NCBI RefSeq assembly: GCF_001592965.1
Contig: NZ_LRPC01000028.1
Location: 434,001-498,000, forward strand
Direction: 5' to 3'
Length of the DNA: 64,000 bases
DNA from: Roseivirga spongicola
GTDB lineage: Bacteria > Bacteroidota > Bacteroidia > Cytophagales > Cyclobacteriaceae
In this document: positions 9,715 to 55,804 of the stretch, one piece after another
Position numbering within the stretch: the stretch's first letter is position 1
Layout of the letters: each line of letters opens with the position of its first letter
Notes under the pieces: generated by a model
The model's input: the letters and a program-made list of their open reading frames with translations, nothing else
Database searches by the model: none
What the model was told of the DNA's origin: nothing
Translations under genes and position numbers: made by a program

Positions 9715-9779
9715 CTTCAATAACTATTGACAAATGACCACTGACCAATTACCTAATTCCCCAATTTCCGTTCAACCGA
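9715..9779. repeat. Degenerate heptanucleotide repeat
   Basis: Between two convergent genes the DNA reads in 7-base steps as ATTGACA, AATGACC, ACTGACC, AATTACC, TAATTCC, CCAATTT, CCGTTCA. The AATGACC-type unit is shared with the repeat at 55746-55804. Confidence 0.65.
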
Positions 9780-12266
9780 TTACTGTTTTCTCTTTTTAAC
9801 CCCACGAATAGCGGGTTCATTCCAAGGATCATCTGGCCAAACATGCTTAGGGTAGCGCCTTTTTAGTTCCTTGCGGACTTCAAAATAGGCATCGGACCAA
9901 AAGCTTTTAAGGTCAGAGGTGATTTGCACGGGTTTGAAACCTGGAGAAAGTAGATGCATTAGTACACCCTGTTTTCCACCATTTATCTTAGGAGTTTCGG
10001 CCAAGCCAAAAACTTCCTGAATACGCACGGCAAGGATAGGAGCTTCGGCATTATCTCGGTATGCCAGTCGGATGCTTGAGCCACTTGGCACTTCAATCTT
10101 TTCAGGTGCCAAGTCATTCAATTGGCTCTGCTGCTCAAAGCTGAGACTGTGATGAAGAATGTCTTTCAGGTTGAGCTTCTTCAAGTCTTCAGGCTTACGA
10201 ATGTCATTGAGATAAGGAGCTAGCCATTCAGCTGAGGTCTGTAGGAGTGAAGAGGTGCTGACTTCTGGCCATTGCTGGTCAGGATTCCATTTCCTGAGCG
10301 ATAATACGCGACTTTGCCATTGAGCTACTTCCTCATTAAAGTCTAGCAATCTTTCGCCTTCTTTCTTAATAGCTTCAATAATTGCTTCTACCAAATGAGA
10401 AGGATCAGGGTCTGGCAGAGGAGTGCTTCGCAATACAATGTTTCCTATGCACAAATTTTTGCTCGCAATCAGTCCACCATCTTCAGTATCCCAAGTAATA
10501 ACTTCTTTTGCCTTTACCAACGGTGCCAAATCACGTGGATTCAATGGAGAGGCCATATGAATCTTACCCATTCCATCGCGGGCATCTATATGGCAAACTG
10601 CTAGCCAAGGTTCGGCAGCCAAATCATCTCTGTGGCCAGCCATAGCATAGCGTCCATTGGATAGCTGAAACTGAGCATTATTACCAGGTCGAGCACAAGC
10701 GATTCGCTCTGGGTAAGCATGGGTAATCAAAACACCTGTTTCATACGGATCGACAAAATCATTCTCTGCTTTAATCTGAAACAGCCTTCGATACTGATCT
10801 GCTATTTTTTCTATTCGCGCCAGCTTCTTTCCATCACGGTTTTCCCTGCGATGCATTCTCAATGCTTCAATTCTGGTATTGATATCTATTCCGGCTTCTC
10901 TTCCAAGCGGATCACGTTCTTCAAGCAAAGCTGCAATATCAGTGGCCAAAGCTAAATGATCATGTTCTTCTGCCAGTAATAGCATATGAGCAATCCTTGG
11001 GTGACAAGGCAAACGCAACATCTTTTGACCATGCTCAGTGATCTTGCCATTTTCTAAGGCCTCAAGCTGATGAAGTAAGTCTCTTGCCTGTGCCAATGGA
11101 CCGGCAGGAGGTGGAGTTAGCCAAGTCATCTGTTGAGCATCAATAATTCCCCATTGCGCCATATCGAGTACCAATGAAGCCAGATCGGCCTCCATAATTT
11201 CTGGTACAATATGCTCAGCCATTCGCTGATGAGTCACTGTTGACCACATGCGATAGCAATGTCCTGCGCTTAGTCTACCAGCCCGGCCTGCCCGCTGATC
11301 GGCTGAGTCTCTAGAAATCCGGACTGTTTCTAAACGAGACAGACCTGAGTTTGGATCGAATTTGGAAGTTCTTCCAAAACCACTGTCAACCACCACTTTA
11401 ATGCCTTCAATGGTCAAACTGGTCTCGGCAATATTGGTAGCCAGTACCACTTTTCGTTTCCCATTTCTATCAGGCATTATGGCTGCCTGTTGCTTATGTG
11501 GCGGAAGACTTCCGAAAAGTTGGTGAATGGCCATATCGCGTAAACTGCCTCTGAGTAAGTCTGCTGTTTTCTGGATTTCTCTTTGTCCTGGAAGGAAGAC
11601 CAAAATATCGCCATCATGCTGTTTTGCAGCCTTTGTTATGGTTTTCGATATCAGTTCAGGAATTAAGAATTCATCGATATCGCCTTCATAGTTTACCTCT
11701 ACAGGATATTGCCTTCCTTCGCTGACTACCGCAGGAGCTTTCAAAAGACTTGTCAGTTGAGGCATGTTCAGCGTGGCCGACATGATCATAATTCTCAAGT
11801 CAGTACGGAGTACCTGTTGGGCTTCACGGCAAAGTGCTAGGGCTACATCGGCATGAATGCTTCGCTCATGGAATTCATCGAAAATGACCATTCCAATGCC
11901 CGAAAGCTCATTGTCTGATTGAATCATTCGGGTAAGAATACCCTCGGTAACGACTTCAATCTTCGTTTTATCAGAAACTCGATTGTCAAATCGAATTCGG
12001 TAGCCAACCGTTTCGCCAACTTTCTCTCCGAGGAAATAAGCCATGCGTTCCGCAATGGTACGCGCAGCCAATCTTCTTGGCTCCAGCATGATTATTTTCT
12101 GACCCTTGAGCCAAGGTTCCTCCATCAAAGTGAGTGGCAGAAGAGTACTTTTTCCAGCACCCGGAGGCGCATTTACGATCATGGTGTTCTTTTCAGCGAG
12201 ATGCTTTCTGGTATCAGAAACTACTTCCTTAACAGGAAGGTCTATATGTTGGTAGTCGAAGGACAT
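9780..12266 (-). CDS. hrpB: ATP-dependent helicase HrpB (DEAH family)
   Basis: An 828-residue DEAH-box RNA-helicase-like protein. Walker A PPGAGKST is at residues 34-41, the DEFH box near 130 (VIFDEFHERS), motif III as SATLN, and motif VI as DQRAGRAGR. These are followed by the helicase-associated domain and the long HrpB-specific C-terminal region ending in VWPDDPWNEPAIRG, typical of this family. Its cellular substrate is not settled. It lies 45 bases after a small secreted-protein gene on the same strand and converges with the permease array. The ATG start is supported by the conserved N-terminal segment just before Walker A. Confidence 0.96.
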   Translation of the reverse strand: MSFDYQHIDLPVKEVVSDTRKHLAEKNTMIVNAPPGAGKSTLLPLTLMEEPWLKGQKIIMLEPRRLAARTIAERMAYFLGEKVGETVGYRIRFDNRVSDKTKIEVVTEGILTRMIQSDNELSGIGMVIFDEFHERSIHADVALALCREAQQVLRTDLRIMIMSATLNMPQLTSLLKAPAVVSEGRQYPVEVNYEGDIDEFLIPELISKTITKAAKQHDGDILVFLPGQREIQKTADLLRGSLRDMAIHQLFGSLPPHKQQAAIMPDRNGKRKVVLATNIAETSLTIEGIKVVVDSGFGRTSKFDPNSGLSRLETVRISRDSADQRAGRAGRLSAGHCYRMWSTVTHQRMAEHIVPEIMEADLASLVLDMAQWGIIDAQQMTWLTPPPAGPLAQARDLLHQLEALENGKITEHGQKMLRLPCHPRIAHMLLLAEEHDHLALATDIAALLEERDPLGREAGIDINTRIEALRMHRRENRDGKKLARIEKIADQYRRLFQIKAENDFVDPYETGVLITHAYPERIACARPGNNAQFQLSNGRYAMAGHRDDLAAEPWLAVCHIDARDGMGKIHMASPLNPRDLAPLVKAKEVITWDTEDGGLIASKNLCIGNIVLRSTPLPDPDPSHLVEAIIEAIKKEGERLLDFNEEVAQWQSRVLSLRKWNPDQQWPEVSTSSLLQTSAEWLAPYLNDIRKPEDLKKLNLKDILHHSLSFEQQSQLNDLAPEKIEVPSGSSIRLAYRDNAEAPILAVRIQEVFGLAETPKINGGKQGVLMHLLSPGFKPVQITSDLKSFWSDAYFEVRKELKRRYPKHVWPDDPWNEPAIRGVKKRKQ

Positions 12267-12311
12267 TTAGTGAATTCTAGTATGCAGTAATTTGACTGGA
12301 GAGAAGCTCGG

Positions 12312-13148
12312 TTAGTTAGATTTTTTACGTTCTAGTTTCCAGATCATCAAAGGTTTGCCTTGTGTTTCTGTTCCGTGTATTCCCAGCAGTGTTAAAGACT
12401 CTGGTTTTATCTCAAAAATTGAGAAGAGATGAATTCCATCAGAATTAATCATGCTATCCGCAACATCATATTTAAAGGTACCCATAGGTCCAATTTCATC
12501 TTGTCCAATAACTAGTTCGTTGTTGGAAAAACTCAGTGAAAACACCGGGTCGGTTATGGGAGCCGATAAAGTATCGAGGATGGTCACAGGTTCCTCATAG
12601 ATAGCAATTCCTTCGGTTCTTACAGGTTGAACGGATTTGGTTACCCATTCACCTTTAATACCCTCTAATAATTCATATCTCGTACTTTCGAAACCTTTTG
12701 AGCTTGTTTTCTTAAATGACATCAACTTATACCCTCTAAGCGGTATGAGTTCAGGGATTTCCAGAAGCTGAAGTTCGTTATTGTCAATTTTAACCACTTT
12801 CCATTTTTGACTGCCGAGAAGCAATGTGTCGGCAGAAACATCATAGATAAATGCATAATGAATAGGTTCTCCTTCAAACAGTTCACGACCTTCAAATGCA
12901 GAATTGAAATTAAAAGCTAAGTCATTTTTATCCTGCTCTTCGTTGTTATGATTTTCCTCAGAACCAAAGCTTCTTAGTTTAGGTATTTCAACCTTGTTTC
13001 CTTCTTCATCAACCTCTATTGAAATTGTGCCTTCCCAAGTGCCTATGATGAGTCTCTTGATATCCTTTTCTTGCTGAGTTTGTGCTGATATGGTGCCTGA
13101 AAACAGGAAGGAAGCTAAAAGGAAAACAGAAGTTATAAGTTGTTTCAT
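12312..13148 (-). CDS. Secreted protein of unknown function, lipocalin-like start
   Basis: A 278-residue protein with a clear signal peptide (KQLITSVFLLASFLFSGTISAQ). The mature part begins with a segment, IKRLIIGTWEGTI, of the style seen in lipocalin-like or DUF-type beta-barrels that open with a GxW motif. The rest is beta-rich with no catalytic motif I can recognise. It lies upstream of hrpB on the same strand; the pairing may be incidental. Start: ATG with basic residues directly before the hydrophobic core. Function unknown. Confidence 0.75.
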   Translation of the reverse strand: MKQLITSVFLLASFLFSGTISAQTQQEKDIKRLIIGTWEGTISIEVDEEGNKVEIPKLRSFGSEENHNNEEQDKNDLAFNFNSAFEGRELFEGEPIHYAFIYDVSADTLLLGSQKWKVVKIDNNELQLLEIPELIPLRGYKLMSFKKTSSKGFESTRYELLEGIKGEWVTKSVQPVRTEGIAIYEEPVTILDTLSAPITDPVFSLSFSNNELVIGQDEIGPMGTFKYDVADSMINSDGIHLFSIFEIKPESLTLLGIHGTETQGKPLMIWKLERKKSN

Positions 13149-13546
13149 TTTGAATAATATGTTGCGAAGTTAAGGGTTTTAGTATTGAGACCTGAGTATT
13201 GGTTATTGAGAAATACGGATTTGGGATGATACTCTTGATATTACAGATTAGAAATTTTATTGAATCTAATAATGAATAGGTAAATCCCCCGACCTTCCCG
13301 AAGCATCGGGAAGGAATTGAGGGTTTTTGAGTCATTTCTTTCTTCTCCAAATCAGAGTCTCTTAGATCCTCAGTGTCCATTTTAGGAGACACTGAGGGTG
13401 TTGCACTTGCGAGTCTCAATACTCAATACTCTGTACTTTGTACTCAATACCCATATCGCAAATCGCTATACAATATTGAAACAAGCTATCATTCCTACGA
13501 ACATTTTTAGCACTCAGGTTGTATGTTTGCATAAAGAACAATCAAT
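13149..13546. other. Gene-free spacer with heptad repeats and two strong hairpins
   Basis: This divergent intergenic region of almost 400 bases holds no convincing gene. It contains two heptad-repeat tracts (13178-13235 with TATTGAG-type units; 13410-13465 with AATACTC- and TGTACTC-type units). It also has two perfect hairpins: CCTTCCCGA/TCGGGAAGG with a four-base loop (13293-13314) and CCTCAGTGTC/GACACTGAGG (13368-13397). A promoter-like element for yaaA lies at its right end. A possible 136-residue minus-strand reading frame here is only repeat DNA. Confidence 0.7.
13522..13529 (+). promoter_or_regulatory. Bacteroidota-type -7 box before yaaA
   Basis: TATGTTTG matches the Bacteroidota sigma consensus TAnnTTTG and lies 17 bases before the yaaA ATG, which predicts a very short leader. 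No convincing -33 TTTG was found at the usual distance. Confidence 0.5.
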
Positions 13547-14311
13547 ATGCTATTAGTACTTTCTCCTGCTAAAACACTCGATTTCGAAACGCCTTGCGAT
13601 AAGGAACATTCTTACCCAAAATTTCAGAAAGAAGCGCTGGAATTGATTGGTGTGCTGAAAGAAAAAAGCCCTGAAGACATTCAAGAGTTGATGGATTTGA
13701 GTGAGAATCTGGCGGAGTTGAATGTAGATAGGTATAGAAAGTTCGCCAAGAGCAAAAACTCTAAAAGAGCCAAACAGGCAGTTTATGCTTTTCAGGGTGA
13801 TGTTTATCAAGGCTTGGAGGCTGAAGCGCTTTCTGATGAAGATATTTCGTATGCTCAAGACAGGTTGAGAATTCTTTCTGGTTTGTATGGCATTTTAAAG
13901 CCATTGGATTTGATTCAGCCTTACCGATTGGAAATGGGTACTCGATTAGCTTTCGATGACTATACCACACTTTACAACTATTGGGCAGATAAGCTTTCCA
14001 TTGAGTTGAATAAGCAGTCTAAGAAGTTGAAAGAGAAAACTTTGGTGAACCTGGCTTCTCAAGAATACTTCAAGGCAGTCGACCTAAAAGCGCTTAAAAT
14101 GAATGTGGTAGATGTTGAGTTTTTAGATAATAAAAACGGTACCTATAAGATCATTTCTTTTTGGGCGAAGAAAGCCCGTGGGCTGATGGCTCAATACATC
14201 ATAAAAAATCGAATCGAGACAATTGAAGGTCTTCAAGCTTTTGATTCTGAAGGCTACTTATTCGATTCTGAATCTTCTACTGATAACAAGCTAATCTTTA
14301 AGAGAGGGTAG
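13547..14311 (+). CDS. yaaA: Peroxide stress protein YaaA (DUF328/UPF0246)
   Basis: A 254-residue cytoplasmic protein of full family length. The signature start MLLVLSPAKTLDFETP and the conserved LSGLYGILKPLDLIQPYRLEMGT segment (written here in parts: residues about 109-130) identify YaaA. In E. coli this protein limits intracellular iron during peroxide stress, and the fold binds DNA. It stands alone with its own promoter-like box and a small hairpin terminator after the stop, and is divergent from the secreted-protein/hrpB pair. Confidence 0.95.
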   Translation: MLLVLSPAKTLDFETPCDKEHSYPKFQKEALELIGVLKEKSPEDIQELMDLSENLAELNVDRYRKFAKSKNSKRAKQAVYAFQGDVYQGLEAEALSDEDISYAQDRLRILSGLYGILKPLDLIQPYRLEMGTRLAFDDYTTLYNYWADKLSIELNKQSKKLKEKTLVNLASQEYFKAVDLKALKMNVVDVEFLDNKNGTYKIISFWAKKARGLMAQYIIKNRIETIEGLQAFDSEGYLFDSESSTDNKLIFKRG

Positions 14312-14350
14312 GTATTGCCTTTACAGTCTTAAGCCTTTTATACTATTTAT

Positions 14351-14371
14351 GTCGATTGTAAATCGACTTTT
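14351..14371 (+). terminator. Hairpin terminator of yaaA
   Basis: GTCGATT and AATCGAC pair around a three-base loop, 39 bases after the yaaA stop, and are followed by TTTTCT. Confidence 0.6.
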
Positions 14372-14452
14372 CTACTGTCCTCGTATCAAACGGTGACGAG
14401 TTGGTAGTTTTATAAAAAGAAAAGATAAGTCCGGAATAGCCGAGGTACCGTA

Positions 14453-14582
14453 ATTGCGAGGAGCAAAAAGAACAAAGTGAAATTTTGTAACGAAGCAATC
14501 CGCTTGTTTATGTGCATCGTGCCAAGAACGGACAGATTGTCGCGTCACAAGTTTGACTCAGGTCAAACTTTCTCCTCGCAAT
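14453..14582. repeat. Structured dispersed repeat bounded by ATTGCGAGGAG
   Basis: ATTGCGAGGAG (14453-14463) and its perfect reverse complement CTCCTCGCAAT (14572-14582) bound about 130 bases. Inside lies a second perfect hairpin, AAGTTTGAC/GTCAAACTT (14549-14570), and a CGAAGCAATCCGC segment. A degenerate relative (attgcgag...gcaatctcc) is at 62499-62540. It resembles the ATTGCGAGG...GAAGCAATC palindromic repeats found between genes in many bacteria. No coding content. Confidence 0.65.
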
Positions 14583-14620
14583 GACTAAATTGGCCTGAAG
14601 ACCTTTAAGATTCCAAAAAA

Positions 14621-14656
14621 ACAAAGAGCGCAAAGTTTAAACTCTGCGCTCTTTGT
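14621..14656 (-). terminator. Rho-independent terminator of the VPS10-like gene
   Basis: A perfect 12-bp stem (ACAAAGAGCGCA with TGCGCTCTTTGT, 12-base loop). On the minus strand it is followed by a run of seven T. It lies 22 bases past the stop of the minus-strand gene. Confidence 0.9.
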
Positions 14657-14678
14657 GTAAATGGGGATATTACACCTA

Positions 14679-17600
14679 TTACTTCCCAGCTTTTTCTATT
14701 TCAATCGTCCTGTTCTTTCTTTCCAGCGCCTTGTTGAACTTCGGAATGTCTTCATTGATAATCTGATCGAATTGTTCAACGGCTTTTTGAAGTCTTCCAT
14801 TTAGCACTTCATAAACTTCACCTTGTTGATTGGTTGGACGGAAGTCTATGCCACTACCGTTGATATCACTAGCCAAAGCACTCAATCTTCCGTAAAGCTT
14901 GATAGGGCTTCTAAATGCATCTTCACGTGCACCTGTAAGGTGAATGTCATATAATTTTCCAGCTATATCTTCGGCAATTCCGAGAAGTCTCATTGCCTCT
15001 TTCTGAGTGCGTTTGTCACTTTCTTCATCTATGATGTTTTCGAGTTCCTTGCGAAGTTGTTCTACGGCATTAATATTACTTACTGCAACGTTAATTGCAT
15101 CTCGCAGTTGAAGGGAGAAATAAACCTGTGCCTCAATATCTTCTTGAGTTCCTTCAGAATAAGGGTCTTTTAACACATCAAACATTTTCGAAACTTCTTG
15201 AATCAAGTCACCATTTTCGTCTTCTAGTTTCAAGTTGACTTTATACGAACCTGGAGCAACCCTTGGTCCGTATTGACCCGCCATTAGGTCTAAATCCCAT
15301 TGTACTAAAGGTCTCCAGCCTTCTCCGTTTAATTGCACCCACGGGCGGCCAGGAGGTTGAGTTAAAAGCTTGGCTCGAATAATTGGCTCGTGTCTTAAGT
15401 CCCAAGTGGTTCTGTTTACACCTGCTCTAGACCTTGGGCTGAGTGTTCTGATCAGGTTTTCCTCTAGGTCTTCGATCTCTATTTTCACTTCACCCTTAAA
15501 TCCTTCAGGTAAGAAATAGTTGATAATAGCTCCATTTGGCGGGTTTTGACCTGAATTGAAGCTTCCTCCATCGGTTTTAATGCTCTCTCGAGTATTGAAC
15601 CTGTAAGTGTCTCTGACGTCCAGCAGCGCCAATTCATCATCTAGCTGATCAGCATTTCTCAGTGCTGCTAAGTCGTCCAATATGTAATATCCACGACCAT
15701 AGGTACCCACCACCATATCGTCAAAACGCTCTTGAATTTCTATCCAGTAAACGGGGGCAGGAGGAAGGTTAAGTCTTAATCTGTCCCAGGTTGAACCATC
15801 ATCATAGCTCACATAAATGCCTTTGTCTATACCAGCATAAAGCATTCCCTGTCTTTTTGGGTCCTCCTTTATGACATGTACAAAGCTCGACTCAGACGAA
15901 GGAATTCCGTCAGAAATCTTCTTCCAGCTTTGGCCATAGTCTGTGGTTTTATAAATATATGGATCGAAATCACCCATTTGGTGAAGGTCTACTGAGATAT
16001 AAACCGTGCCTTTCTGATACTTCGAAATTTCAATGTTGGCAATAGTTCCCCACTCTGGAAGACCAGTGATATTGGCTGTTAGGTTCTGCCAGGTTTCACC
16101 ACCATCTTTGGTGAGTTGAACTTGTCCATCATTTGTGCCCACCCAAATTAAGCCTTCTTCTAAAGGCGATTCTTCAATGGCGAATAGGGTAGAACCATCG
16201 AAAGTCATCAGGTTGTCAATTGCTACCCCACCAGAACTCTGCTGATGATCTTTCAGGTTTAGGGTTAAATCTGGGCTGATGATTTGCCAGCTTTGGCCAT
16301 TATCGTCCGACTTATGAACGTACTGACTACCTACATACACTCTGTTTTTAGTGTGAGGGGAAAAGCTTAGCGGGAAGTTCCAATGCCAACGATATTTCAT
16401 ATCTGCCGGAGCCCAACCGTAGCCAGCTTCTGGCCAAACTCTAACTTCTCTCGAGTGACCTGTTCTGATATCGTGTCTTTCTAAACCACCATCGTAACAA
16501 CCCGACCAGATGATGTTATTGTCGTTGGGATCTGGTTGAGCAAAACCACTTTCACAGCCGCCAACGCCTTTCCACAAACCAAGCGGAATGTAGCCTTGTA
16601 ATGAATTGCTTGGTCCCATGTAGGACCAACCGTCTTGACGATTACCGAATACATTGTAAGGAATTTTATCATCTACTGCTACATGGTACATCTGCGCGAT
16701 AGGAAGTACCACTCTTTGGAAAGATCTTCCATGATTGAGGGTCATACTTACCCCACCATCGTGAGCAACCATAAAGCGGTCAGGGTTTTCTGGATCGATC
16801 CAAATGTCATGGTTATCGCCACCACCTCTTGGAGGTCTTCTGTTCCTAGTTTTTCCACCATCTAATGAGTGAACGAACCGAACCGACATAGAATAGATTT
16901 CATTCGGATCACCAGTATTCACACGTAATCGGGTGTAATAAGGAGCTCTTTCATTCCAATCATGATCACGGCTCATCAATGTCCAGCTCATGCCTTTGTC
17001 CTCCGATCTCCACACTTCAGGGCTTTCTGCTTCGAACAAAGCGTAAACCACATTTGGGTCACTATGAGACAGTGCTACCGATGTTTTTCCTACAATTCTA
17101 TCAGCACCGAACTTCAGGCCATACTTGTTTAAAGGTTCCCAAGTATCGCCACCATCTGTAGATTTATAAACTCCACTTCCGGCACCACCGCTATTCAATC
17201 CCCAAGTATTGATATGTACAGACCACATAGCAGCATAGATGATGTTTGGGTTTTCTGGGTCGATGGCTAAATCTGATGCACCAGTTCCTTCATCTATAAA
17301 TAAAACTCTTTCCCAAGTTTCTCCACCATCTTTGGTGCGGTACACACCGCGCTCTTGCTGAGGACCATATGTGTGACCTAATGAAGCTGCATAAACAATG
17401 TCTGGGTTGGTAGGGTGGATTACCACATGTCCGATTCTACCTGTTTTTTCCAAGCCTTTGTGTTCCCAAGTCTGGCCTGCATCTGGTGAGAAATAGATTC
17501 CATTTCCCATGGCATGGGCAGGACGGATAACGAAAGTTTCGCCTGTTCCTACCCAAACTTGATCAGGATCGGAGGGAGCTAAGGCCACAGAGCCAATGGA

Positions 17601-17852: not shown

Positions 17853-17882
17853 TGTTTTAAGGTTTGAGGGGAAGATAATAAA

Positions 17883-17912
17883 AAAGGAGATTGTCAAAAA
17901 TCAATCTCCTTT
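17883..17912 (-). terminator. Rho-independent terminator of the oxidoreductase gene
   Basis: An 11-bp perfect stem AAAGGAGATTG/CAATCTCCTTT. On the minus strand the stem runs straight into TTTTTTATT. It sits between the oxidoreductase stop and the start of the VPS10-like gene, so the two are separate transcription units. Confidence 0.9.
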
Positions 17913-17934
17913 ATGCGTAATATTATTGATTTGA

Positions 17935-19350: not shown

Positions 19351-19612
19351 AGTTTCAAAAATGTGAGCCAGCGCGCTCGTTTCATACAATCGTTTAGCTT
19401 GGATATACCTTGCTGAATCAGTAAACGCGTGTTAACATCAGTGATTCTTGAACACACGTAGTACTGATCTGTCGATAAATTAAGGATAAATGACTTAATC
19501 AAAAATCATTTTCTGACCTTCTACATTTATGCCAAATGAAATAAAGTCTTTTAGCCATCTGGCAACTATATCTTTTTTGGGAGTCTAATTCTTCTAACTT
19601 ACAAACAATTGT

Positions 19613-27388: not shown

Positions 27389-27391
27389 GTC

Positions 27392-35831: not shown

Positions 35832-35895
35832 ACAAATGACAAGCGTCAAATTCCAATTGCCGACCAACTCTGATTACTGTTTTCCGTTTTCTAAT
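35832..35895. repeat. Degenerate heptanucleotide repeat
   Basis: Between pcm and the thioesterase gene the DNA reads in 7-base steps CAAATGA, CAAGCGT, CAAATTC, CAATTGC, CGACCAA, CTCTGAT, TACTGTT, TTCCGTT, TTCTAAT. It is more decayed than the other copies. Confidence 0.5.
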
Positions 35896-46428: not shown

Positions 46429-46440
46429 ACCCATTTTTCT

Positions 46441-46513
46441 GTCATTCCTGCGAAGGCAGGAATCCCCAATTCTGTGCACAAAACTTAGGGATTTCCACCT
46501 TCGTGGAAATGAC
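46441..46513. repeat. Double-hairpin dispersed repeat (GTCATTCCTGCGAAGGCAGG type)
   Basis: One end forms ATTCCTGC/GCAGGAAT (loop GAAG) and the other ATTTCCAC/GTGGAAAT (loop CTTC), inside GTCA...TGAC ends. This repeat type is widespread in bacterial genomes. It lies directly before the sirtuin start and gives the spurious upstream reading frame there. Confidence 0.8.
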
Positions 46514-46530
46514 ATGTTTTTGATAGGGGG

Positions 46531-47073: not shown

Positions 47074-48038
47074 TTGAGATGTTTAGAAAAAAAAGTGTTG
47101 ATCGACTTCTCGAACTCTTCATTCAGAGGAAGGTTTGGGTTTGAATAGGAGGCAGTATTTTCATTGGTTAAGGCAGAAGAATTTTTCAACACATGGTTCA
47201 TTCCTTCAATCACTTTTAGTTCGGCCTTGGCATTGGCTATCTGAAGTCGCTGAGCGTCTTCTACGGTTACCTGTAAGTCTGTGCTGCCAGCTACTACCAA
47301 GATTGGTATATCCAGTTTTTCAATTTCCAGCAAGGGGTCATATTTCATCCATGATCTCATAAACGGTTGAATGCTTGGCCTGAAAACGGCCATTAGGTAA
47401 GGAGGGATTGTGGAAACACTTTCTCCATTTCTGAGCTTGTTAAAAATATCTTCGGCCTCTTTGGTAATGTTAGGTGGATTAAAAGGATTGCTCTTAATCT
47501 GAGCTAGTATGGTTTCATCAATACTTAGTGAAGGTCCAGCAATTGAAGCGAAAGCTTCTACCTTTTCATGTCGAGACAATCTCATTCCGATTAGAGATCC
47601 TTGAGAGTGACCTGCGATGCCAATACTATTGAAGCGTCTATCTTCTATAAGAAACTCTAGCCATGCATTGGCGTCATTTACAAAGTCATCGAATGATAGC
47701 TCAGCTTCTGGTATAGCAGCTTCTTTACTTAGGCCAACACCTCGCTTATCGAATCGGAGGGAGGCTATGCCGTTTTGGGCTAATACCTCTGCTAAAAGCT
47801 TTAGCGAGTTGTTCTTTCCTGCCAGAGCAATTGAATTACCATCTTTATCGGTTGGTCCAGAACCTTGGATGATAAGTACAATAGGCAGCTTTTTCTTCTT
47901 GCCTTCAGGGAACATTATGACTCCACCAAGATCATGTCCTTTGGATTGAATATGTACCGTATCTTCTTCGAAGGTTTGTGTGTGAAGAAGAGGTGAAAAT
48001 AAAAGTATAAAGAAAGATATAAGTATCAGTCTGCCCAT
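47070..48038 (-). CDS. Secreted alpha/beta hydrolase
   Basis: A 322-residue exported hydrolase. The start is taken at ATG 48038, six bases inside a TTG-start version, giving a signal peptide (LILISFFILLFSPLLHTQ). The nucleophile elbow is GHSQGS (near 145), the oxyanion region is IIQGSGPTDKDGNS, and the final His is in GMNHVLKN near the C-terminus. Esterase or peptidase activity is likely; the natural substrate is not known. It is coupled to the HD gene by an ATGA overlap. Confidence 0.9.
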   Translation of the reverse strand: MGRLILISFFILLFSPLLHTQTFEEDTVHIQSKGHDLGGVIMFPEGKKKKLPIVLIIQGSGPTDKDGNSIALAGKNNSLKLLAEVLAQNGIASLRFDKRGVGLSKEAAIPEAELSFDDFVNDANAWLEFLIEDRRFNSIGIAGHSQGSLIGMRLSRHEKVEAFASIAGPSLSIDETILAQIKSNPFNPPNITKEAEDIFNKLRNGESVSTIPPYLMAVFRPSIQPFMRSWMKYDPLLEIEKLDIPILVVAGSTDLQVTVEDAQRLQIANAKAELKVIEGMNHVLKNSSALTNENTASYSNPNLPLNEEFEKSINTFFSKHLK

Positions 48039-48110
48039 AGTCAATCTGTTTGAAAACTAATGATTTCAATGGAGACTTGAAACAATAAATAAGCCAAAGA
48101 AAGTTAAGAA

Positions 48111-50597
48111 TTACTTCTTTTTAGCCTTTCCCTTTTTTGCAGGAGTATTGTTGGCAATTAAAGTTTGAGCTTCTTCTAATGTCATGTTTTCTACACTAAC
48201 ATTTTTAGCTAACTCTACTTTTACCTTGCCTTTTATAACATTATGCCTTCCCCAACGAGCCTTTTCAACGCGAATGCCTTCAGACTCCCAGTTATGAATA
48301 ACCTTTTCTCTTTCCTTCTTAAGCTTATCTTCAATGAGTTCCTCAATATCTTGTGCCGAAAGGTTATCCCAGTCGTACTTTTTGTTCACGTTAATGAACA
48401 TATTGTCCCATTTTATGAAAGGCCCAAACCTTCCTTTACCTTTCTGAACCGGCTTATCTTGATAAACATAAATAGGTGCATCAGCCTCTTCTTTTTGTTT
48501 GATGAGCTCAATGCATTCGTCTAGCTCAATGCTAATTGGGTCGGCACTCTTAGGTAGAGAAATAAACTTCTCATCGTACTTAATATATGGTCCAAAACGG
48601 CCTATGGCGGTAACTACTTCTTTGCCTTTGTATTCGCCAACCTCTCTTGGTAGTTGGAATAGTTCTAGCGCTTCTTCTAGTGTTATACTCTCAATGAATT
48701 GCCCTTTTTTAAGGCTAGCATATTTAGGTTTATCTTCCTCATCTTCAGAGGCTTCACCTATTTGAACTAAAGGTCCGAATTTACCAAGTCTAGCAACAAC
48801 AGTTTTGCCACTTTCCGGATCAATTCCTAACTCCCTACTAGCACCAACTTCTCTGCGGTCTATTTGCTCTGTTTCTTCTACAGTCTGATGGAACTTACCG
48901 TAGAAGTTCTTAATCATATTGTCCCAGTTTTGAGAACCCTGAGCAATTTGATCAAATTCTTCTTCCACATTAGCAGTAAAAGAGTAGTCTATCACATTTG
49001 GGAAATGATCTACCAAAAAGTCATTCACCACCATTGCAATATTGGTAGGGAAGAGCTTCGACTTTTCCGCACCAGTAATTTCCGTAAGAGCGTTAGACCG
49101 AATATTGTCATCTTTCAATATTAGCTCGATGTATTTACGCTCGTTACCTTCTCTGTTTTCCTTAACTACATACTCCCGCTTCTGAATTGTAGAAATAGTA
49201 GGGGCATAAGTAGAAGGTCTACCGATACCCATTTCTTCCAATTTCTTCACCAAACTAGCCTCTGTATATCTGGCAGAAGGGCGAGTAAAGCCTTGTCTGG
49301 CTTTTAAGAAATCTAACTTTAGGTTCTGACCAATAGATAATGGTGGAAGCATTCCCTTTGCCTCATCTCCACTTTCTTCATCGTCTGTAGATTCGATATA
49401 AACCTTTAAGAAGCCTTCGAAAACTATCACCTCACCATGGGCAACAAGTCTTTCTTTGTTAGTTGAAATGTCAATATTTACGGTAGTGCGCTCCAACTGA
49501 GCATCTGCCATTTGAGAGGCTACAGCTCTTTTCCAGATCAGTTCGTAGAGCCTTTTTTCGTTATAGTCTTTCCCAGCAGTATGTGCCGAAAAATCAGTTG
49601 GTCTTATGGCTTCGTGAGCTTCTTGTGCCGATTGAGACTTGGTTTTGAATACACGACTTTTTGCGTATTCAGCTCCATAAGCCGACTTTATTTCTTTTGC
49701 AGCACCGTCCATGGCCTCTTGAGAAAGGTTCACAGAGTCAGTTCTCATATATGATATCTTACCCGCTTCGTAAAGCCTCTGGGCCAAAGTCATGGTTTGA
49801 GAAACAGAGAAATTTAGCTTTCTACTGGCCTCTTGCTGAAGGGTAGAAGTTGTAAACGGAGCAGCTGGAGATCTTTTTCCAGGTTTTTTGTCGAGTGATT
49901 CGATAGTGAAGTTGGCAGCTTTACAACTTTCTAGAAAGGCTTGCGCCTCTTCTTCTGTATCGAAACGTTTAGGTAGTTCGGCTTTTAACTCTTTACCATC
50001 TATGTCGAAGATGGCTGAAACTTTAAAGAAAGATTGAACATCGAATTGATCGATTTCTCTTTCTCTTTCTACTACCAAACGAACTGCCACAGATTGAACT
50101 CTTCCTGCTGAGAGTCCTCTTTTTATCTTCTTCCAAAGCACTGGAGAAAGCTCGTAACCCACAATTCTATCTAGTATTCTTCTGGCTTGCTGAGCATAGA
50201 CTAAATCTTCATCTATAGTCCTTGGGTTTTCCAAGGCCTTCTGAATAGCAGATTTGGTTATCTCTCTGAATACTATGCGCTTAGTGAAATCATCTTTAAG
50301 CTTTAATGCTTCTTTTAAGTGCCAGCTAATGGCCTCTCCCTCGCGGTCATCATCACTCGCTAGGTAGATGGTCTCTGCCTCTTTCGCTAACTTTCTAAGG
50401 TTTTTGATGACGTCTTTCTTGTCTGCCGTAACTTCATAGGTGGGGCGAAAGCCATTTTCAATATCAATAGCTTTATCTCCTTTGGGTAAATCTCTCACAT
50501 GGCCATAACTAGAAACTACTTTGAAGTCTTTTCCAAGATATCCTTCTATGGTTTTAGCTTTAGCCGGTGACTCGACAATAACAAGATTTTTCGACAT
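48111..50597 (-). CDS. topA: DNA topoisomerase I (type IA)
   Basis: An 828-residue type IA enzyme that relaxes negative supercoils. Toprim domain: IVESPAKAKTIEGYLG with the DDDREGEAI acidic cluster near 82-90. The catalytic tyrosine is Y283 in ISYMRTDS. In place of zinc fingers it has C-terminal repeats of the GRFGPFIKW type (seen about four times) followed by a lysine-rich tail, the form common in Bacteroidota. The start at 50597 (MSKNLVIVESPAK) fits the family; an 18-residue longer reading extends into the divergent promoter region. Confidence 0.97.
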   Translation of the reverse strand: MSKNLVIVESPAKAKTIEGYLGKDFKVVSSYGHVRDLPKGDKAIDIENGFRPTYEVTADKKDVIKNLRKLAKEAETIYLASDDDREGEAISWHLKEALKLKDDFTKRIVFREITKSAIQKALENPRTIDEDLVYAQQARRILDRIVGYELSPVLWKKIKRGLSAGRVQSVAVRLVVEREREIDQFDVQSFFKVSAIFDIDGKELKAELPKRFDTEEEAQAFLESCKAANFTIESLDKKPGKRSPAAPFTTSTLQQEASRKLNFSVSQTMTLAQRLYEAGKISYMRTDSVNLSQEAMDGAAKEIKSAYGAEYAKSRVFKTKSQSAQEAHEAIRPTDFSAHTAGKDYNEKRLYELIWKRAVASQMADAQLERTTVNIDISTNKERLVAHGEVIVFEGFLKVYIESTDDEESGDEAKGMLPPLSIGQNLKLDFLKARQGFTRPSARYTEASLVKKLEEMGIGRPSTYAPTISTIQKREYVVKENREGNERKYIELILKDDNIRSNALTEITGAEKSKLFPTNIAMVVNDFLVDHFPNVIDYSFTANVEEEFDQIAQGSQNWDNMIKNFYGKFHQTVEETEQIDRREVGASRELGIDPESGKTVVARLGKFGPLVQIGEASEDEEDKPKYASLKKGQFIESITLEEALELFQLPREVGEYKGKEVVTAIGRFGPYIKYDEKFISLPKSADPISIELDECIELIKQKEEADAPIYVYQDKPVQKGKGRFGPFIKWDNMFINVNKKYDWDNLSAQDIEELIEDKLKKEREKVIHNWESEGIRVEKARWGRHNVIKGKVKVELAKNVSVENMTLEEAQTLIANNTPAKKGKAKKK

Positions 50598-50742
50598 GTA
50601 GGGCTTGATTTTAATCTCTGAGCGCCTCAAAGATGCGCATAAAACTTTCAAAAAAACAAACGAATTGATTTTTCACCTGTTTTGCGATATATCAATACAT
50701 TGCTTAATTCGTTGTTCAACAAACAACACAACATCAATTAAA

Positions 50743-51234
50743 ATGGTTAGAAATTTATTATTGATTAGGCATGCGGAAGCTGAATTTCCGAGCGAACGCA
50801 AAAGAGATTTCGATAGAAACTTAACACCTAATGGTCAGAATCAGGGAATTATCTTGGCTAGCTACCTGAAAGAATTACCCTTTGAGCTAGACGCCATATA
50901 CCACAGTCCATCTAAAAGAACCTTACAAACCAGCCAATTCATTCTAGATACTCTGAATAAAGTGCCCAGAATGATGGATGCCGAAGAATTATATGAAGCA
51001 ACTGGAAACCTCATGAGGGCTTTTGTGAATAGAATGGATGATAATTTTAAAAATGTAGCTATTGTAGCCCATAACCCTGGTATTGCAGAACTACATAATT
51101 ACCTCACCAGAAAATTTGAGTCTTACAGTCCCTCAACCTGTTCATGGCTAGAAGGGGAGTTTGAGAGTTGGTCTCACATTACAGAAAATAGTTTTACCGA
51201 ACGAGATTTTTACTATCCTGGCCAAATCGGATAA
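50743..51234 (+). CDS. sixA: Phosphohistidine phosphatase SixA-like (histidine phosphatase superfamily)
   Basis: A 163-residue phosphatase. Catalytic RHAEAEFP is near residue 9, and the second His lies in VAHNPGIAEL; LTPNGQNQG and HSPSKRTLQTS are typical of the SixA branch, which removes phosphate from histidine-phosphotransfer domains. The start at 50743 (MVRNLLLIRHAE) is clear; 46 codons upstream in the same frame belong to the topA divergent region. It lies 65 bases before the polyamine operon, which has its own promoter box. Confidence 0.9.
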   Translation: MVRNLLLIRHAEAEFPSERKRDFDRNLTPNGQNQGIILASYLKELPFELDAIYHSPSKRTLQTSQFILDTLNKVPRMMDAEELYEATGNLMRAFVNRMDDNFKNVAIVAHNPGIAELHNYLTRKFESYSPSTCSWLEGEFESWSHITENSFTERDFYYPGQIG

Positions 51235-51260
51235 TGATCTATTGAGAATAATTGAGAAAC

Positions 51261-51294
51261 TTTGGCTCAGTAAAAATTGAAGGTTTTATTTTTG
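51261..51294 (+). promoter_or_regulatory. Bacteroidota promoter with near-leaderless spacing
   Basis: A perfect -7 box TATTTTTG (51287-51294) is paired with TTTGG (51261-51265) about 22 bases upstream. The ATG of the polyamine fusion follows only four bases after the -7 box, so transcription should start at or next to the start codon. Confidence 0.6.
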
Positions 51295-51298
51295 ACGC

Positions 51299-52576
51299 AT
51301 GGCATCATTAGGAAGACATATTATAGTGGAGTACTACAACTGTTCTCCAGAATTATTGAACGATGTAGTTCATATAGAAAAAAGCATGGAAAATGCTGCA
51401 GAAGAGGCTGGAGCAACCATCATTAATTCAACTTTTCACCACTTTTCACCTTATGGTGTTTCTGGTGTTGTGGTTATACAAGAAAGCCACTTGGCTATTC
51501 ATACATGGCCTGAATATGGTTATGCGTCTGTAGACTTATTCACCTGTGGAGATACGGTAAACCCTTGGGTTTCTTATCAGATGTTAAAAGATTCATTTCA
51601 GGCTGGGCATGGTTCGGCTGTAGAGTTGAAGAGGGGTGAAATGGCTTTATTGAAGAGAAAGAACTTTGATGTGAAAGCCATGAGAGATGAAAAAAGCTCT
51701 GAAGATGGTGACCCTATCAGAACCAGAGATGTATGGTTTACCGAGCGTGACGATAAAATAGCCCTTTCTCTCAAGCATGATGGTAAATTGTACGATGTGC
51801 AATCTGACTATCAGCGCGTAGAAGTGTATAATACACAAGCTTATGGTAATATGCTTACGCTAGATGGCATGGTAATGACCACCGAAAAAGATGAGTATGT
51901 GTATCATGAAATGATTACTCACGTTCCGCTTTTAACTCATCCAGATCCAAAAAGAGTGCTTATTATAGGTGGTGGTGATGGTGGAACCGCCCGCGAGGTT
52001 CTTAAACATGAGAACTTGGAAGAAGTGGTAATGGTGGAGATTGATGATAAAGTGATCGAGGCAAGTAAGATGCACTTACCAACTATAGCCCAATCGTTAG
52101 ACCATCCTAAGCTAAACCTGATCATTGATGATGGAATCAAATATGTAAACGATGCTGCCGATGGTAGTTTCGATTTAGTTATTGTAGATTCTACCGATCC
52201 TGTTGGCCCAGCGGAAGGTTTATTCACTGTAGATTTTTATAAGGAGGTTCACCGAATACTCTCAGCTGATGGATTGATGATTACTCAAAGTGAGTCGCCA
52301 AGATTTAACAGCAAAGTCTTTAAGGAAATTTACCAGACTTACAGAGGAATCTTTGGTCAAGATAACGTACACTGTTACTTAGCTCATATTCCTACTTATC
52401 CAACTGGCATGTGGTCATTCAGCTACAGCTCAAAAGGATCGGCCAACCCAATGAACTTAAAGCCTACTGAAGAGGTAGATGCTTTTGTAAAGGCTAACAA
52501 GCTCAGATATTATAATGCCGATTTACATAAAGCAGCATTTGCATTGCCAAACTTTGTAAAAGAAATGATTGGGTAA
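51299..52576 (+). CDS. Fused S-adenosylmethionine decarboxylase - spermidine synthase
   Basis: A 425-residue fusion. Residues 1-120 are a bacterial-type AdoMet decarboxylase with the self-processing E62-S63 site ([10 protein letters not shown]), H68 and C83, the same numbering as the well-studied Thermotoga enzyme. Residues about 140-425 are a spermidine synthase with [14 protein letters not shown] (SAM site), [22 protein letters not shown] (catalytic Asp region) and YPTGMWSF. One polypeptide thus makes decarboxylated SAM and transfers its aminopropyl group to putrescine. It overlaps the agmatinase-like gene by one base (TAATG). Confidence 0.95.
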
Positions 52577-53613
52577 TGGCAACAGACTTCAATCCAAACA
52601 ATGTTGGTATTAAGGGCACTCTATTTGGGTTGCCCTATAGTACCGATGATGCCAAAGTAGTGGTAATTCCTGTGCCTTGGGATGTTACTGTTTCTTATGG
52701 AGCAGGAACTTCAGATGGTCCTGAAGCTGTGTTGGAGGCTTCATCTCAACTAGACTATGAGCAGCCAGATCTTTCTGAAGCATGGAAGCTAGGTGTGGCT
52801 ATGGCCGATATTCCTGAGGTTTGGTATTCACTAGGGAAGGAGTTGCGTGCCAAATCGGAACAGTACATTCAATGGCTCGAAGAGGGATCTAACCCAGTTT
52901 TAGCCAAAGAAATGGATGCTATTCTTGAAGAAGTGAATGAAGAATGCGCTCAACTGATGAAGTATGTTGAGCAAGAGTGCGACTATTGGCAGGAGAAAGG
53001 TAAGTTAACTGTGCTACTTGGGGGAGATCATAGTACTCCTTTGGGACATATCAGATCTTTAACCAAAAAGCATAAGGGCTTAGGAATCCTTCAGATTGAT
53101 GCTCATGCTGACCTCCGGACGGCTTATGAAGGCTTTGAGTTTTCACATGCGAGCATTATGTACAATGCTTTAAAGGATGAAAATCTAGGAAAGTTAGTGC
53201 AGGTTGGCATCCGTGATTATTGTCAAGAAGAGGCTGATCTCGTTAAAGGTTCGAAAGGAAGAGTAGTTAGCTTTTACGATCAGGTAATTAAAGAAGAGCA
53301 ATATGCTGGTGTTACTTGGGATGCTATTTGCGAAAAGATAATTGCCGAACTGCCAGAGAAAGTCTACATCTCATTCGATATTGATGGCTTAGACCCTAAG
53401 CTTTGCCCAAATACAGGTACTCCTGTGCCTGGTGGCTTTGAGTTCGAACAAGTGATGTACTTGTTTAAAAAGCTGGTACAATCGGGTAAAACTATTGTGG
53501 GAGCCGACCTAAATGAAGTTTCACCTTCAGATGATGAGTGGGATGCCAACGTGGGTGCAAGAGTGCTCTATAGGCTAATCAACTTAATGGCTATGAGTCA
53601 GGGCTTGCTTTAA
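52576..53613 (+). CDS. speB: Agmatinase/arginase-family ureohydrolase
   Basis: A 345-residue manganese ureohydrolase. Metal ligands are visible in GGDHSTPLGH, DAHADLRTAYEGFEFSHA and SFDIDGLDPKLCPNTGTPVP. Coupling by a one-base overlap to an AdoMetDC-spermidine synthase fusion supports agmatinase (agmatine to putrescine) over arginase or other family members, because putrescine is the fusion's acceptor. An extra helical insert (about 95-145, EEGSNPVLAKEMDAILEEVN) is longer than in E. coli SpeB. No arginine decarboxylase is in the window. Confidence 0.85.
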   Translation: MATDFNPNNVGIKGTLFGLPYSTDDAKVVVIPVPWDVTVSYGAGTSDGPEAVLEASSQLDYEQPDLSEAWKLGVAMADIPEVWYSLGKELRAKSEQYIQWLEEGSNPVLAKEMDAILEEVNEECAQLMKYVEQECDYWQEKGKLTVLLGGDHSTPLGHIRSLTKKHKGLGILQIDAHADLRTAYEGFEFSHASIMYNALKDENLGKLVQVGIRDYCQEEADLVKGSKGRVVSFYDQVIKEEQYAGVTWDAICEKIIAELPEKVYISFDIDGLDPKLCPNTGTPVPGGFEFEQVMYLFKKLVQSGKTIVGADLNEVSPSDDEWDANVGARVLYRLINLMAMSQGLL

Positions 53614-53617
53614 GCCC

Positions 53618-54217
53618 TCACTTCAAAACAGTCTTTCTAATCCCTAGTTCTCTAGTCTTTTTCATTACGAAGGCTACAAATTCAAATGGTGTTCTGGCAT
53701 CGGCTGTAATAATAACACAAGAATCTGCAGGCAAGGCATATTTATGCTCATTTATCTTACCCATGAATACGGCTTCAAAACTATTAATGGGTAAGTCATT
53801 GTTATTTAGATATATAAGCCTTCTTTCATCAATATGAAGATTAAATGTGATGTGCTTTTCGGATAACATCTGGGCATAGAGAAACAAGACTTCTTCAGGA
53901 CGTTGTTCACCCATGTTTTCCAGTTCTCTCTGAGCCTTAAGGAATGGCTCCTTAGGAATGAAGGATGGAATGCTAAGTGCTTCGGGTTTAAACTCTTCTA
54001 TAATGGAATAGATCTTTTTATGAAGAATGTCAACATGCTCAAATTCACCTTCATTCAAAATTCCCTTCTCTATTAATGCAGTCTTAAATGATTGAACTAC
54101 CTCTGTGACATTCACTTCAATTCTATCGTTGTTATAGTGCTTCTGAATGATGTCTATTGAAGACGTTTGATCTCCGTGCCATTGAAAGAATAATAGAAGC
54201 AAAATGATAGCTTTCAT
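53618..54217 (-). CDS. Exported protein with ExbD-like C-terminus
   Basis: A 199-residue protein with a short signal or anchor (KAIILLLLFFQW) and a helical middle. Its C-terminal 35 residues (CVIITADARTPFEFVAFVMK, then KTRELGIRKTVL) follow the ExbD/TolR periplasmic pattern of strand, Asp, Tyr/Phe, amphipathic helix, Gly and strand. It lacks the ExbD transmembrane Asp segment. It converges with speB at a distance of five bases. Function unknown; the ExbD-like reading is by eye. Confidence 0.65.
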   Translation of the reverse strand: MKAIILLLLFFQWHGDQTSSIDIIQKHYNNDRIEVNVTEVVQSFKTALIEKGILNEGEFEHVDILHKKIYSIIEEFKPEALSIPSFIPKEPFLKAQRELENMGEQRPEEVLFLYAQMLSEKHITFNLHIDERRLIYLNNNDLPINSFEAVFMGKINEHKYALPADSCVIITADARTPFEFVAFVMKKTRELGIRKTVLK

Positions 54218-54335
54218 GAGGTGAGTTTAACTATATAAATAGTTGAAACCAAAGAATTATTCTCCGATTTAAAAGAGAACTGTTGGTGAATGAAGTCTTA
54301 TCTGTTATTATAGCGGCTTCACATAATTTGAGACT

Positions 54336-55748
54336 GTGGGATTTATAGAAGACGCTGTAGCTTTTTTTGCCGGATGGATTTGGGGAATACCTCTTTTAAT
54401 TCTTTTAATGGGTGGGGGGCTTTTCTTTATGGTATACGCTCGCTTCAGCCCATTTCTATATTTTAAACATGCCATTCAGGTATTAGCTGGTAAATACCAC
54501 GAAGAAGATAAAGAGGGTCAAATTAGTCACTATGAGGCGCTTTCTACAGCGCTTGCGGCTACTGTGGGTATGGGTAACATTTCTGGAGTGGCTGTGGCCA
54601 TCACCATGGGAGGCCCAGGTGCTATCTTCTGGATGTGGGTTTCGGCATTCTTCGGAATTGCCACAAAATTCTTCACCTGTACTTTGGCAGTTATGTATCG
54701 TGGAAAAGATTCTGACGGTGAAGTTAGGGGTGGTCCCATGTATGTAATAACCGAAGGCTTAGGTAAGAAATGGAAACCTCTGGCGGTTTTCTTCTGTATT
54801 TTCGCATTGATTGGTGCATTGCCAATATTCCAAGCCAACCAGCTAACCGCTGCCCTTAATGAAGTGTTGGCGCCATCCATTGGTTATGATGTGGCTTCAT
54901 CATTCACCTTTTTAGGAATAGATATACCTTACGCTTCAGCCGTTATTGGTGTAATACTCACCGTATTGGTTTCTTCTGTGATCTTTGGTGGAATTAAGAG
55001 GATTGCTAAAGTGGCCTCAAAGATGGTTCCTTCTATGGTGGTGCTTTATTTCATTCTTGTAGTCTACATTCTAATTCAAAACCTAGCTGGTATTCCGGAG
55101 ATATTTGCTTCAATTCTTGAAGAAGCCTTTAACGGCAATGCCATTTTAGGAGGTGGTGTTGGTGCCATAATTGTAACTGGAGCCAAACGAGCTGCATTCT
55201 CGAATGAAGCGGGTATAGGAACTGCCCCTATGGTACACGGAGATTCTAAAACGGATGAGCCAGTAAGAGAAGGTTTGGTTGCTATGCTTGGTCCAGCTAT
55301 AGATACGCTTTTGGTTTGTACCCTTACCGCTCTAGTAATTCTGAGTACTGGTGTTTACAAACCGTATATAGGAGATGGCAACATAGCAGGTATTTCTTTA
55401 ACACTCGAAGCATTTAATGCTGCTATTCCAGGTTACGGAGCTTACTTCTTAGGACTGTGCATTCTGGTTTTTGCCGTGAGTTCTCTGCTTTCTTATTCTT
55501 ACTACGGAGTGAAGTGTGTGTCTTTTATGCTGGGAGCTAAGAACGGAAACCTTTATAACTATTTGTATATAGGTACTATTATTATCGGGGCTGTTACTTC
55601 GCTGGGTTTTGTGGTAAACCTGATAGACAGCAGCTTTGCTCTAATGGCCATACCTACCATGATTTCTGCCATATTATTGGCGCCTAAAGCATGGAAAGCA
55701 GCTCAAGACTACTTCGCCAGGCTTAAGGCAGGGGAGTTTGATAACTAG
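54336..55748 (+). CDS. Sodium:alanine/glycine symporter family (AGCS)
   Basis: A 470-residue inner-membrane transporter with about 10-11 helices. The diagnostic region SHYEALSTALAATVGMGNIS, then GVAVAITMGGPGAIFWMW, lies near 65-105, and GAKRAAFSNEAGIGTAPMVH near 285. It imports alanine, glycine or related amino acids with Na+. It starts with GTG at 54336; no ATG is suitably placed. It stands alone, divergent from the ExbD-like gene and followed by a striking heptad-repeat hairpin. Confidence 0.95.
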   Translation: MGFIEDAVAFFAGWIWGIPLLILLMGGGLFFMVYARFSPFLYFKHAIQVLAGKYHEEDKEGQISHYEALSTALAATVGMGNISGVAVAITMGGPGAIFWMWVSAFFGIATKFFTCTLAVMYRGKDSDGEVRGGPMYVITEGLGKKWKPLAVFFCIFALIGALPIFQANQLTAALNEVLAPSIGYDVASSFTFLGIDIPYASAVIGVILTVLVSSVIFGGIKRIAKVASKMVPSMVVLYFILVVYILIQNLAGIPEIFASILEEAFNGNAILGGGVGAIIVTGAKRAAFSNEAGIGTAPMVHGDSKTDEPVREGLVAMLGPAIDTLLVCTLTALVILSTGVYKPYIGDGNIAGISLTLEAFNAAIPGYGAYFLGLCILVFAVSSLLSYSYYGVKCVSFMLGAKNGNLYNYLYIGTIIIGAVTSLGFVVNLIDSSFALMAIPTMISAILLAPKAWKAAQDYFARLKAGEFDN

Positions 55749-55804
55749 TCAATAGCTATTAGTCATTAGTCATTCATAACCGAATGACTAATGACTAATT
55801 TCCA
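55746..55804. repeat. Heptanucleotide repeat forming a perfect 17-bp hairpin
   Basis: TAGTCAT- and CTAATGA-type 7-base units are arranged head to head. Positions 55759-55775 pair perfectly with 55782-55798 around a six-base loop (ATAACC). It lies between convergent genes, overlaps the stop of the arsC-like gene, and may terminate both transcripts. Confidence 0.8.

Follow-up and report, generated by a model that had tools for sequence, protein, structure and literature searches.

Intergenic DNA of Roseivirga spongicola carries worn tandem arrays of seven-base units (heptads), which are probably simple-sequence repeats of a heptameric unit that slippage renews seven bases at a time while mutation makes the copies imperfect. 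The arrays were noticed in a stretch of 64,000 nucleotides (nt; hereafter the window), positions 434001-498000 of contig NZ_LRPC01000028.1 (C28) in a 4.48-Mb genome of 33 contigs, for which an initial annotation had proposed a heptad "grammar" between genes. That word implies a coded meaning, whereas what we observed are steps of seven, rapid turnover and an orientation bias.

Period seven exceeds other periods between genes

The host sample covered 1.078 Mb (24% of the genome; C28:1-678000 and C1:900001-1300000), with 512 gaps totalling 171.7 kb and 905 kb of coding sequence (CDS). Genes were called with a simple codon-usage caller alone, and wrong starts shift the gap edges. Periodicity was scored as local identity runs at each lag, and gaps were compared with 20 dinucleotide shuffles and with CDS; segments are listed at a score of at least 11 where no other cut-off is named.

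At lag 7, the host gaps contained 44 segments scoring at least 10, 25 scoring at least 12 and 18 scoring at least 14, while the shuffled gaps gave 3.8 at the lowest of these cut-offs (maximum 7) and 0.7 at the next. The other lags from 4 to 23, multiples of seven aside, yielded 2-14 segments at 10 or above and 0-9 at 12 or above, the highest at the lower cut-off being lag 8 (14) and lag 16 (11); multiples of seven were raised, as expected (lag 14, 25; lag 21, 19; lag 28, 12). Moreover, the segments were mostly intergenic, as CDS held only 8 at 10 or above and 1 at 12 or above, and the lags raised there were the multiples of three. A unit of seven that exceeds other unit lengths and lies mainly between genes is what characterizes heptameric simple-sequence repeats, and the expectation of the initial annotation, that period 7 would stand out between genes over random sequence, withstood the scan. 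That chance or base composition produces the arrays is hardly credible: two of the sites first named, at 13178 and 35832, are weak, in favour of it, but the shuffles and the neighbouring periods speak otherwise, and the host scan refutes it.

The same signal was found in relatives. Gaps in 580 kb of R. thermotolerans, which shares 94% identity with the window in its HrpB protein, contained 16 lag-7 segments versus 1.4 in shuffles, and a separate 864 kb run had the same outcome. These two genomes formed the discovery set; validation relied on 79 loci from relatives and on genomes G133, G080 and G201, the latter three picked because earlier pattern searches had given heptads there. An eightieth locus, L049, was excluded from the period scan, being inside the R. 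thermotolerans stretch, while another scan took all 80; the validation set contains some Roseivirga (L050-L056, L107 and G201), and its independence is therefore incomplete. In the 79 loci, lag 7 ranked top, with 36 segments at 10 or above and 25 at 12 or above in 273 kb of gaps, and with 10 and 1 in 1.14 Mb of CDS; lags 8, 6 and 12 were somewhat up too (13, 9 and 8 at 12 or above). At this higher cut-off G133, G080 and G201 had 20, 11 and 6 lag-7 segments, with maxima over eight other non-multiple lags of at most 6, 3 and 1, respectively. Period 8 forms a weaker second peak, with 9 host segments at 12 or above versus 0.85 in shuffles, besides the 13 in the 79 loci; it was not seen in R. thermotolerans gaps (1 segment).

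Arrays so worn escape repeat finders at their usual settings. Tandem Repeats Finder, used with its lowest threshold, listed four of the six window gaps that score 11 or more as period 7, with scores of 31-37; one of the six was given period 8, and the array at 7214 was missed.

Arrays in the window

The features of the window are listed below. Each named span was compared with 2000 dinucleotide shuffles, for which 0.0005 is the floor, and as the spans were picked by eye the p values are too favourable.

2312-2341, plus strand: AACATGA-type array in a tandem-gene spacer (score 11, p = 0.003).
4783-4813, plus strand: AACNTNA-type array, with the next gene 8 nt on (score 12, p = 0.002).
7214-7244, plus strand: AACATGA-type array 8 nt ahead of a MacB/FtsX-type permease gene (score 12, p = 0.0005).
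9723-9760, plus strand: AATGACC-type array in a convergent gap, 19 nt off the 3' end of the HrpB gene (score 13, p = 0.0005 in 9715-9779).
13186-13208, minus strand: marginal TATTGAG-type remnant (minus-strand CTCAATA) upstream of the 12312-13148 gene (span 13178-13235, score 6, p = 0.04).
13415-13465, plus strand: array of seven degenerate units of CTCAATA type, ahead of the YaaA gene at 13547-14311 (score 20, p = 0.0005).
13522-13529, plus strand: TATGTTTG, putative -7-like promoter box of the YaaA gene.
35870-35891, plus strand: weak lag-7 stretch between thioesterase and PCMT genes (score 9, p = 0.001 in 35832-35895).
55746-55774, plus strand: TAGTCAT-type array that starts with the three bases of the alanine symporter stop codon (score 12, p = 0.0005).
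55758-55799, no strand assigned: 18-bp perfect hairpin with inverted heptads as arms, in a 46-nt convergent gap (z = -9.2), the right arm entering the end of an ArsC-type gene.

Five gaps had been said to parse into heptads, each with a theme of its own. Three of them do so strongly: 9715-9779 (ACTATTG ACAAATG ACCACTG ACCAATT ACCTAAT), 13410-13465, which holds the top array of the window (CTCAATA CTCAATA CTCTGTA CTTTGTA CTCAATA CCCATAT CGCAAAT), and 55746-55804 (TAGTCAA TAGCTAT TAGTCAT TAGTCAT plus an inverted copy). The span starting at 13178 is marginal, and that at 35832 is weak and was mis-registered, as its periodic part is 35870-35891, with units CTGATTA CTGTTTT CCGTTTT in place of the CAAATTC theme assigned to it. 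The array ahead of YaaA lies upstream of TATGTTTG, which is also present in R. thermotolerans and which we take to be a promoter box from the Bacteroidota TAnnTTTG consensus. In R. thermotolerans the 9723-9760 array is still alignable, with substitutions, and a similar but diverged stretch, judged by eye, corresponds to 13186-13208. GTTCAAA-type heptads (4754-4777) occupy the opposite gap edge from the 4783-4813 array. The arrays at 2312-2341, 4783-4813 and 7214-7244 lie outside those five gaps. In addition, 32-9619 holds four tandem open reading frames (ORFs) of similar size (745-799 aa), with related AAC-type heptads in their spacers; the one tested is a MacB/FtsX-type permease.

Distribution and themes

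Arrays were present in 37 of the 512 sampled host gaps, and their distribution was patchy: 41 segments fell in the 106.6 kb of C28 gaps and three in C1:0.9-1.0 Mb, while the 49.5 kb of gaps in C1:1.0-1.3 Mb contained none, for which the "genome-wide" of the initial annotation is too strong. Its descriptions of the units as degenerate and of the arrays as occurring in operon, divergent and convergent gaps alike were borne out, the 32 host segments at 11 or above comprising 12 in plus-strand operon gaps, 9 in minus-strand operon gaps, 6 in divergent and 5 in convergent gaps. Themes do differ between loci, as had been proposed, but they also recur and are related, and many units have one AC or GT per seven bases.

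Within the class, heptads are present in many families, with themes varying by genome. Three consecutive CTCAATA units, allowing at most two mismatches, matched in 19 of 198 genomes, the host included, with up to 65 matches in one, and were not found in most. In the host CTCAATA outnumbered its reversed control 12 to 0; nevertheless, reversed CTCAATA was dropped as a neutral control, since ATAACTC is itself a heptad theme, with up to 99 matches elsewhere. Counts of an AATGACT pattern were likewise given no weight, its reversed pattern having matched 12 of 16 genomes, equal to the pattern itself; of all these pattern counts, weight is given to the 12-to-0 host result only.

Some further observations concern single sites. 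A clean GTATTGA array (score 14) at C1:1288988 falls within a predicted minus-strand ORF of 248 aa and is among the few coding arrays, and the convergent gap C28:587785-587839 has about eight nearly perfect GTCGGAA units, much cleaner than the others. Palindromes of the form CAGTGTC...GACACTG occur within heptad-bearing gaps at 13280-13400 of the window and at C28:30077-30272. The window itself is located just ahead of a point near C28:500-550 kb at which the GC skew changes sign and which may be a terminus; a dnaA match lies at C1:1391599.

Length steps, turnover and persistence of sites

Length changes by whole units were observed, in small numbers. Counted by eye between shared anchors, the YaaA array is 65 nt long in the window, 28 nt or four heptads more than the 37 nt of R. 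thermotolerans, and in R. thermotolerans itself one of two paralogous spacers is longer than the other by one heptad. Exact 7-base indels were also seen in aligned gaps of G201 and G203 (median protein identity 97%). When these two genomes and G211 (92% to G201) were compared and the three pairs pooled, multiples of seven made up three of the five well-flanked indels in heptads and two of the 43 in other gap DNA (Fisher p = 0.005).

Place and period persist while the letters turn over fast. Substitutions between G201 and G203 affected a fraction of 0.25 of heptad columns (0.23 at a stricter cut) versus 0.13 of other gap columns, and those between G201 and G211 0.36 versus 0.23; between G211 and G203 the two kinds of column were equal (0.28). 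One convergent gap illustrates this, as its heptads differ throughout and the adjoining canonical terminator hairpin is identical in G201, G203 and G211. Nevertheless, among 100 orthologous gaps, 14 had an array in the host and 6 in R. thermotolerans, with 5 having one in both, when 1.25 shared sites were expected after stratification by length, and five were reached in 3 of 5000 trials.

Orientation

When gaps are read on the plus strand, G+T-rich arrays prevail in the left half and A+C-rich ones in the right half, regardless of gene directions. In the host and R. thermotolerans, 35 of 44 arrays followed this rule versus 21.8 for matched gap DNA (0/500), although the rule was derived from the same set. 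In the other data it was followed by 51 of 77 versus 39.9 (1/300), carried by G080 (13/15; 2/300) and the 79 loci (20/30; 22/300), with no excess in G133 (14/24; 99/300) or G201 (4/8; 231/300). The bias is strong in Roseivirga and mixed elsewhere. A version of the rule based on AC/GT dinucleotides gave 30/38 in the discovery set and did poorly in validation (37/63, of which the 79 loci gave 11/24), and our claim is therefore restricted to the keto/amino version.

Relative to genes, arrays ahead of starts were AC-type on the coding strand in 21 of 23 discovery cases, in 8 of 15 from the 79 loci and in 7 of 14 from G133, while arrays past stops were GT-type in 14 of 21 discovery cases. Pooling both sets, 25 of the 30 arrays within 30 nt of a start were AC-type and 26 of the 40 within 30 nt of a stop were GT-type.

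Hairpins built from inverted heptads

The hairpin at 55758-55799 has a counterpart in the orthologous gap of G212 (L130), where an 18-bp stem has two base pairs changed on both sides. These compensatory changes could reflect selection on RNA or between-arm copying during replication. Among 14 other loci matching the symporter, L132 and L134 have GGTCAAT and TCTAAAG arrays, respectively, just past the gene (by eye), and no clear array was seen by eye in the rest. Strong stems with heptad arms were also found at C28:635997 and at position 128826 of R. thermotolerans (R:128826); the gap orthologous to R:128826 in the host (C28:23591-23686) folds strongly as well, much of it due to a neighbouring hairpin.

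Such stems would suit a reading in which inverted pairs serve as transcription terminators or stabilisers of mRNA ends and heptads are the raw material for new hairpins: the stem is perfect and lies in a convergent gap, G212 keeps an equal one, and heptad-arm stems recur at other sites. We nevertheless find this reading doubtful. Of 44 folded contexts, all of them of arrays, 33 were above z = -2, and some of the 11 that reached -2 or below did so via non-heptad hairpins. Moreover, the 55758-55799 stem, as read from the sequence, has no T-run on either strand, as an intrinsic terminator would, in the other convergent gap described above a canonical terminator stands apart from the heptads next to it, and template switching between the arms could transfer changes without selection. 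The window had no match to Rfam 15 families at the gathering score.

How the arrays may arise and what may hold them

In the explanation that we consider the most probable, slipped-strand events in DNA synthesis would gain or lose whole seven-base units, at times several together, and point mutations would blur the units, leaving each array a worn, drifting series. As gain or loss of seven bases disrupts a reading frame, intergenic DNA would be nearly the only place where arrays survive. Selection may then filter site and orientation, with AC-type (G-poor) arrays tolerated or favoured just ahead of genes and GT-type just past them, and a minority may turn into inverted pairs that fold as hairpins and possibly act as transcript ends. 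Several observations weigh against this explanation. The indel counts are small, two of the five heptad indels are single bases, and array-bearing alignments also contain gaps that are no multiple of seven. Plain slippage is silent on why the unit is seven rather than six, nine or ten, and period 8 is raised as well, if much less; the regional lack in C1 is not explained by it either. Furthermore, persistence in the same gaps, the orientation bias and a preference for gene edges exceed what neutral slippage would give: with 121 arrays, 30 lay within 30 nt of starts versus 22.1 at random (18/1000) and 40 within 30 nt of stops versus 26.7 (0/1000), the start-edge preference coming from the validation set only (23 versus 13.3), as the discovery set is without it (7 versus 8.8).

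Alternatively, the arrays could be maintained functional elements of gene edges, either a site spaced by seven for a DNA- or RNA-binding protein or an unstructured AC-rich leader ahead of starts, in which the letters may drift provided that the spacing and the AC or GT type are kept. The orientation counts (35/44 versus 22 expected, and 51/77 versus 39.9 in other data), the types prevailing within 30 nt of starts and stops and the persistence of sites despite turnover all suit such elements, and a role in translational regulation has been suggested for TAACTGA repeats just ahead of starts (PMC4679880). On the other hand, heptad columns change as fast as other gap DNA or faster, the unit sequence varies between loci, the YaaA array is upstream of the promoter-like box and hence outside that leader, and neither the 79 loci nor G133 show the rule on the start side. 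One candidate binder is removed, as a search of the genome for RRM_1 proteins gave none at E <= 0.001. On balance we regard maintained elements as unlikely, if the most serious of the alternatives. Two narrower ideas were set aside, namely Rho-utilisation sites, by the reasoning that many AC-type units lack YC dimers, and an attC-like reading (GTTRRRY/RYYYAAC), whose arms come in the opposite order.

An origin of the arrays as termini or relics of small mobile elements is very improbable. Two arrays of G201 do flank a dispersed palindromic element, but the listed host arrays showed no element sequence in common, and dispersed repeats occurred in 6 of 37 array-bearing host gaps versus 3.1 for length-matched gaps, which is not significant (77/1000). 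The element (G201:C45:502003-502127, within L229) is intergenic, and copies of it exist in G201, G203, G204 and G211, on both strands.

Slippage and function could also be combined, in that heptad arrays may be a renewable gene-edge signal common to distant bacteria, with slippage making the strings and selection on a strand code (GT-type on leaving a gene and AC-type on entering one, irrespective of transcription direction) holding them at the same gaps as their letters change. We offer this as speculation, with rather small odds of being right; if a common machine reads the code, such as ribosome entry, Rho, or a protein that binds RNA or the nucleoid in steps of seven bases, the heptads of Xanthomonas, Nostoc, Beggiatoaceae and Bacteroidota would be explained together without quadruplexes. 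Under slippage, the arrays would be the trace of mutation that proceeds seven bases at a time and remodels the spacers between bacterial genes.

Comparison with known heptameric repeats

A survey of bacterial simple-sequence repeats from 2007 was reportedly the work of Mrazek. As cited, it found unit length seven over-represented and proposed polymerase slippage; it is general, and the passages citing it mention neither degenerate arrays nor polarity (PMC4692102). A recent survey describes a subset of 6-9-bp repeats as highly enriched in prokaryotic phyla, with a high repeat density in Bacteroidota (PMC12699852).

The initial annotation knew of no named element of this kind in Bacteroidota, yet TAACTGA direct repeats have been reported in five Bacteroidetes strains, as well as in marine Beggiatoaceae and cyanobacteria, and other heptamer repeats share some of those Bacteroidetes gaps (MacGregor 2015, PMC4679880). 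Among the matches listed in the open-access literature, this was the only report of heptads in Bacteroidetes that we recognised. Similarly to the arrays described here, TAACTGA repeats are mostly intergenic, and their orientation in F. litoralis agrees with the polarity rule, 12 of 14 sets being forward ahead of a start and one reversed past a stop (PMC4679880). They differ in having one fixed unit, and in the Beggiatoaceae genome under study its single-base variants seldom form repeats (PMC4679880), whereas host units vary within arrays and between loci, and no window array has TAACTGA as its unit. The likeness to the heptanucleotide repeats of cyanobacteria noted by the initial annotation is reasonable; for Calothrix, tandem heptanucleotides are mentioned (PMC4692102), a likeness in description.

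The closest parallel is found in the G-rich heptameric repeats of Xanthomonas, (GGGANTN)n, and Nostoc, GGGGA(C/T)T, described in a report according to which heptameric repeats are over-represented in many bacterial genomes (PMC4692102). They share with the host arrays the seven-base unit in perfect or heterogeneous copies, a chiefly intergenic position near gene edges, many inverted pairs, the same polarity, and lengths that differ among close relatives (PMC4692102). In contrast, host arrays are AT-rich and more degenerate, with many themes per genome, and they do not avoid divergent gaps, which make up 110 of the 512 gaps and hold 6 of the 32 segments. The quadruplex-type tract is also missing, as none of the window arrays has three consecutive G or C recurring in each unit. 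Nevertheless, the Xanthomonas and Nostoc polarity (coding strand downstream of genes, non-coding strand upstream) is reproduced by the G+T/A+C skew, with two of the four validation sets showing no excess. The polarity rule itself is not new, and it is extended here to arrays without G-tracts; because such AT-rich arrays show the same strand bias, the bias of G-rich heptads need not stem from quadruplexes, and the question of why the unit is seven becomes directly testable.

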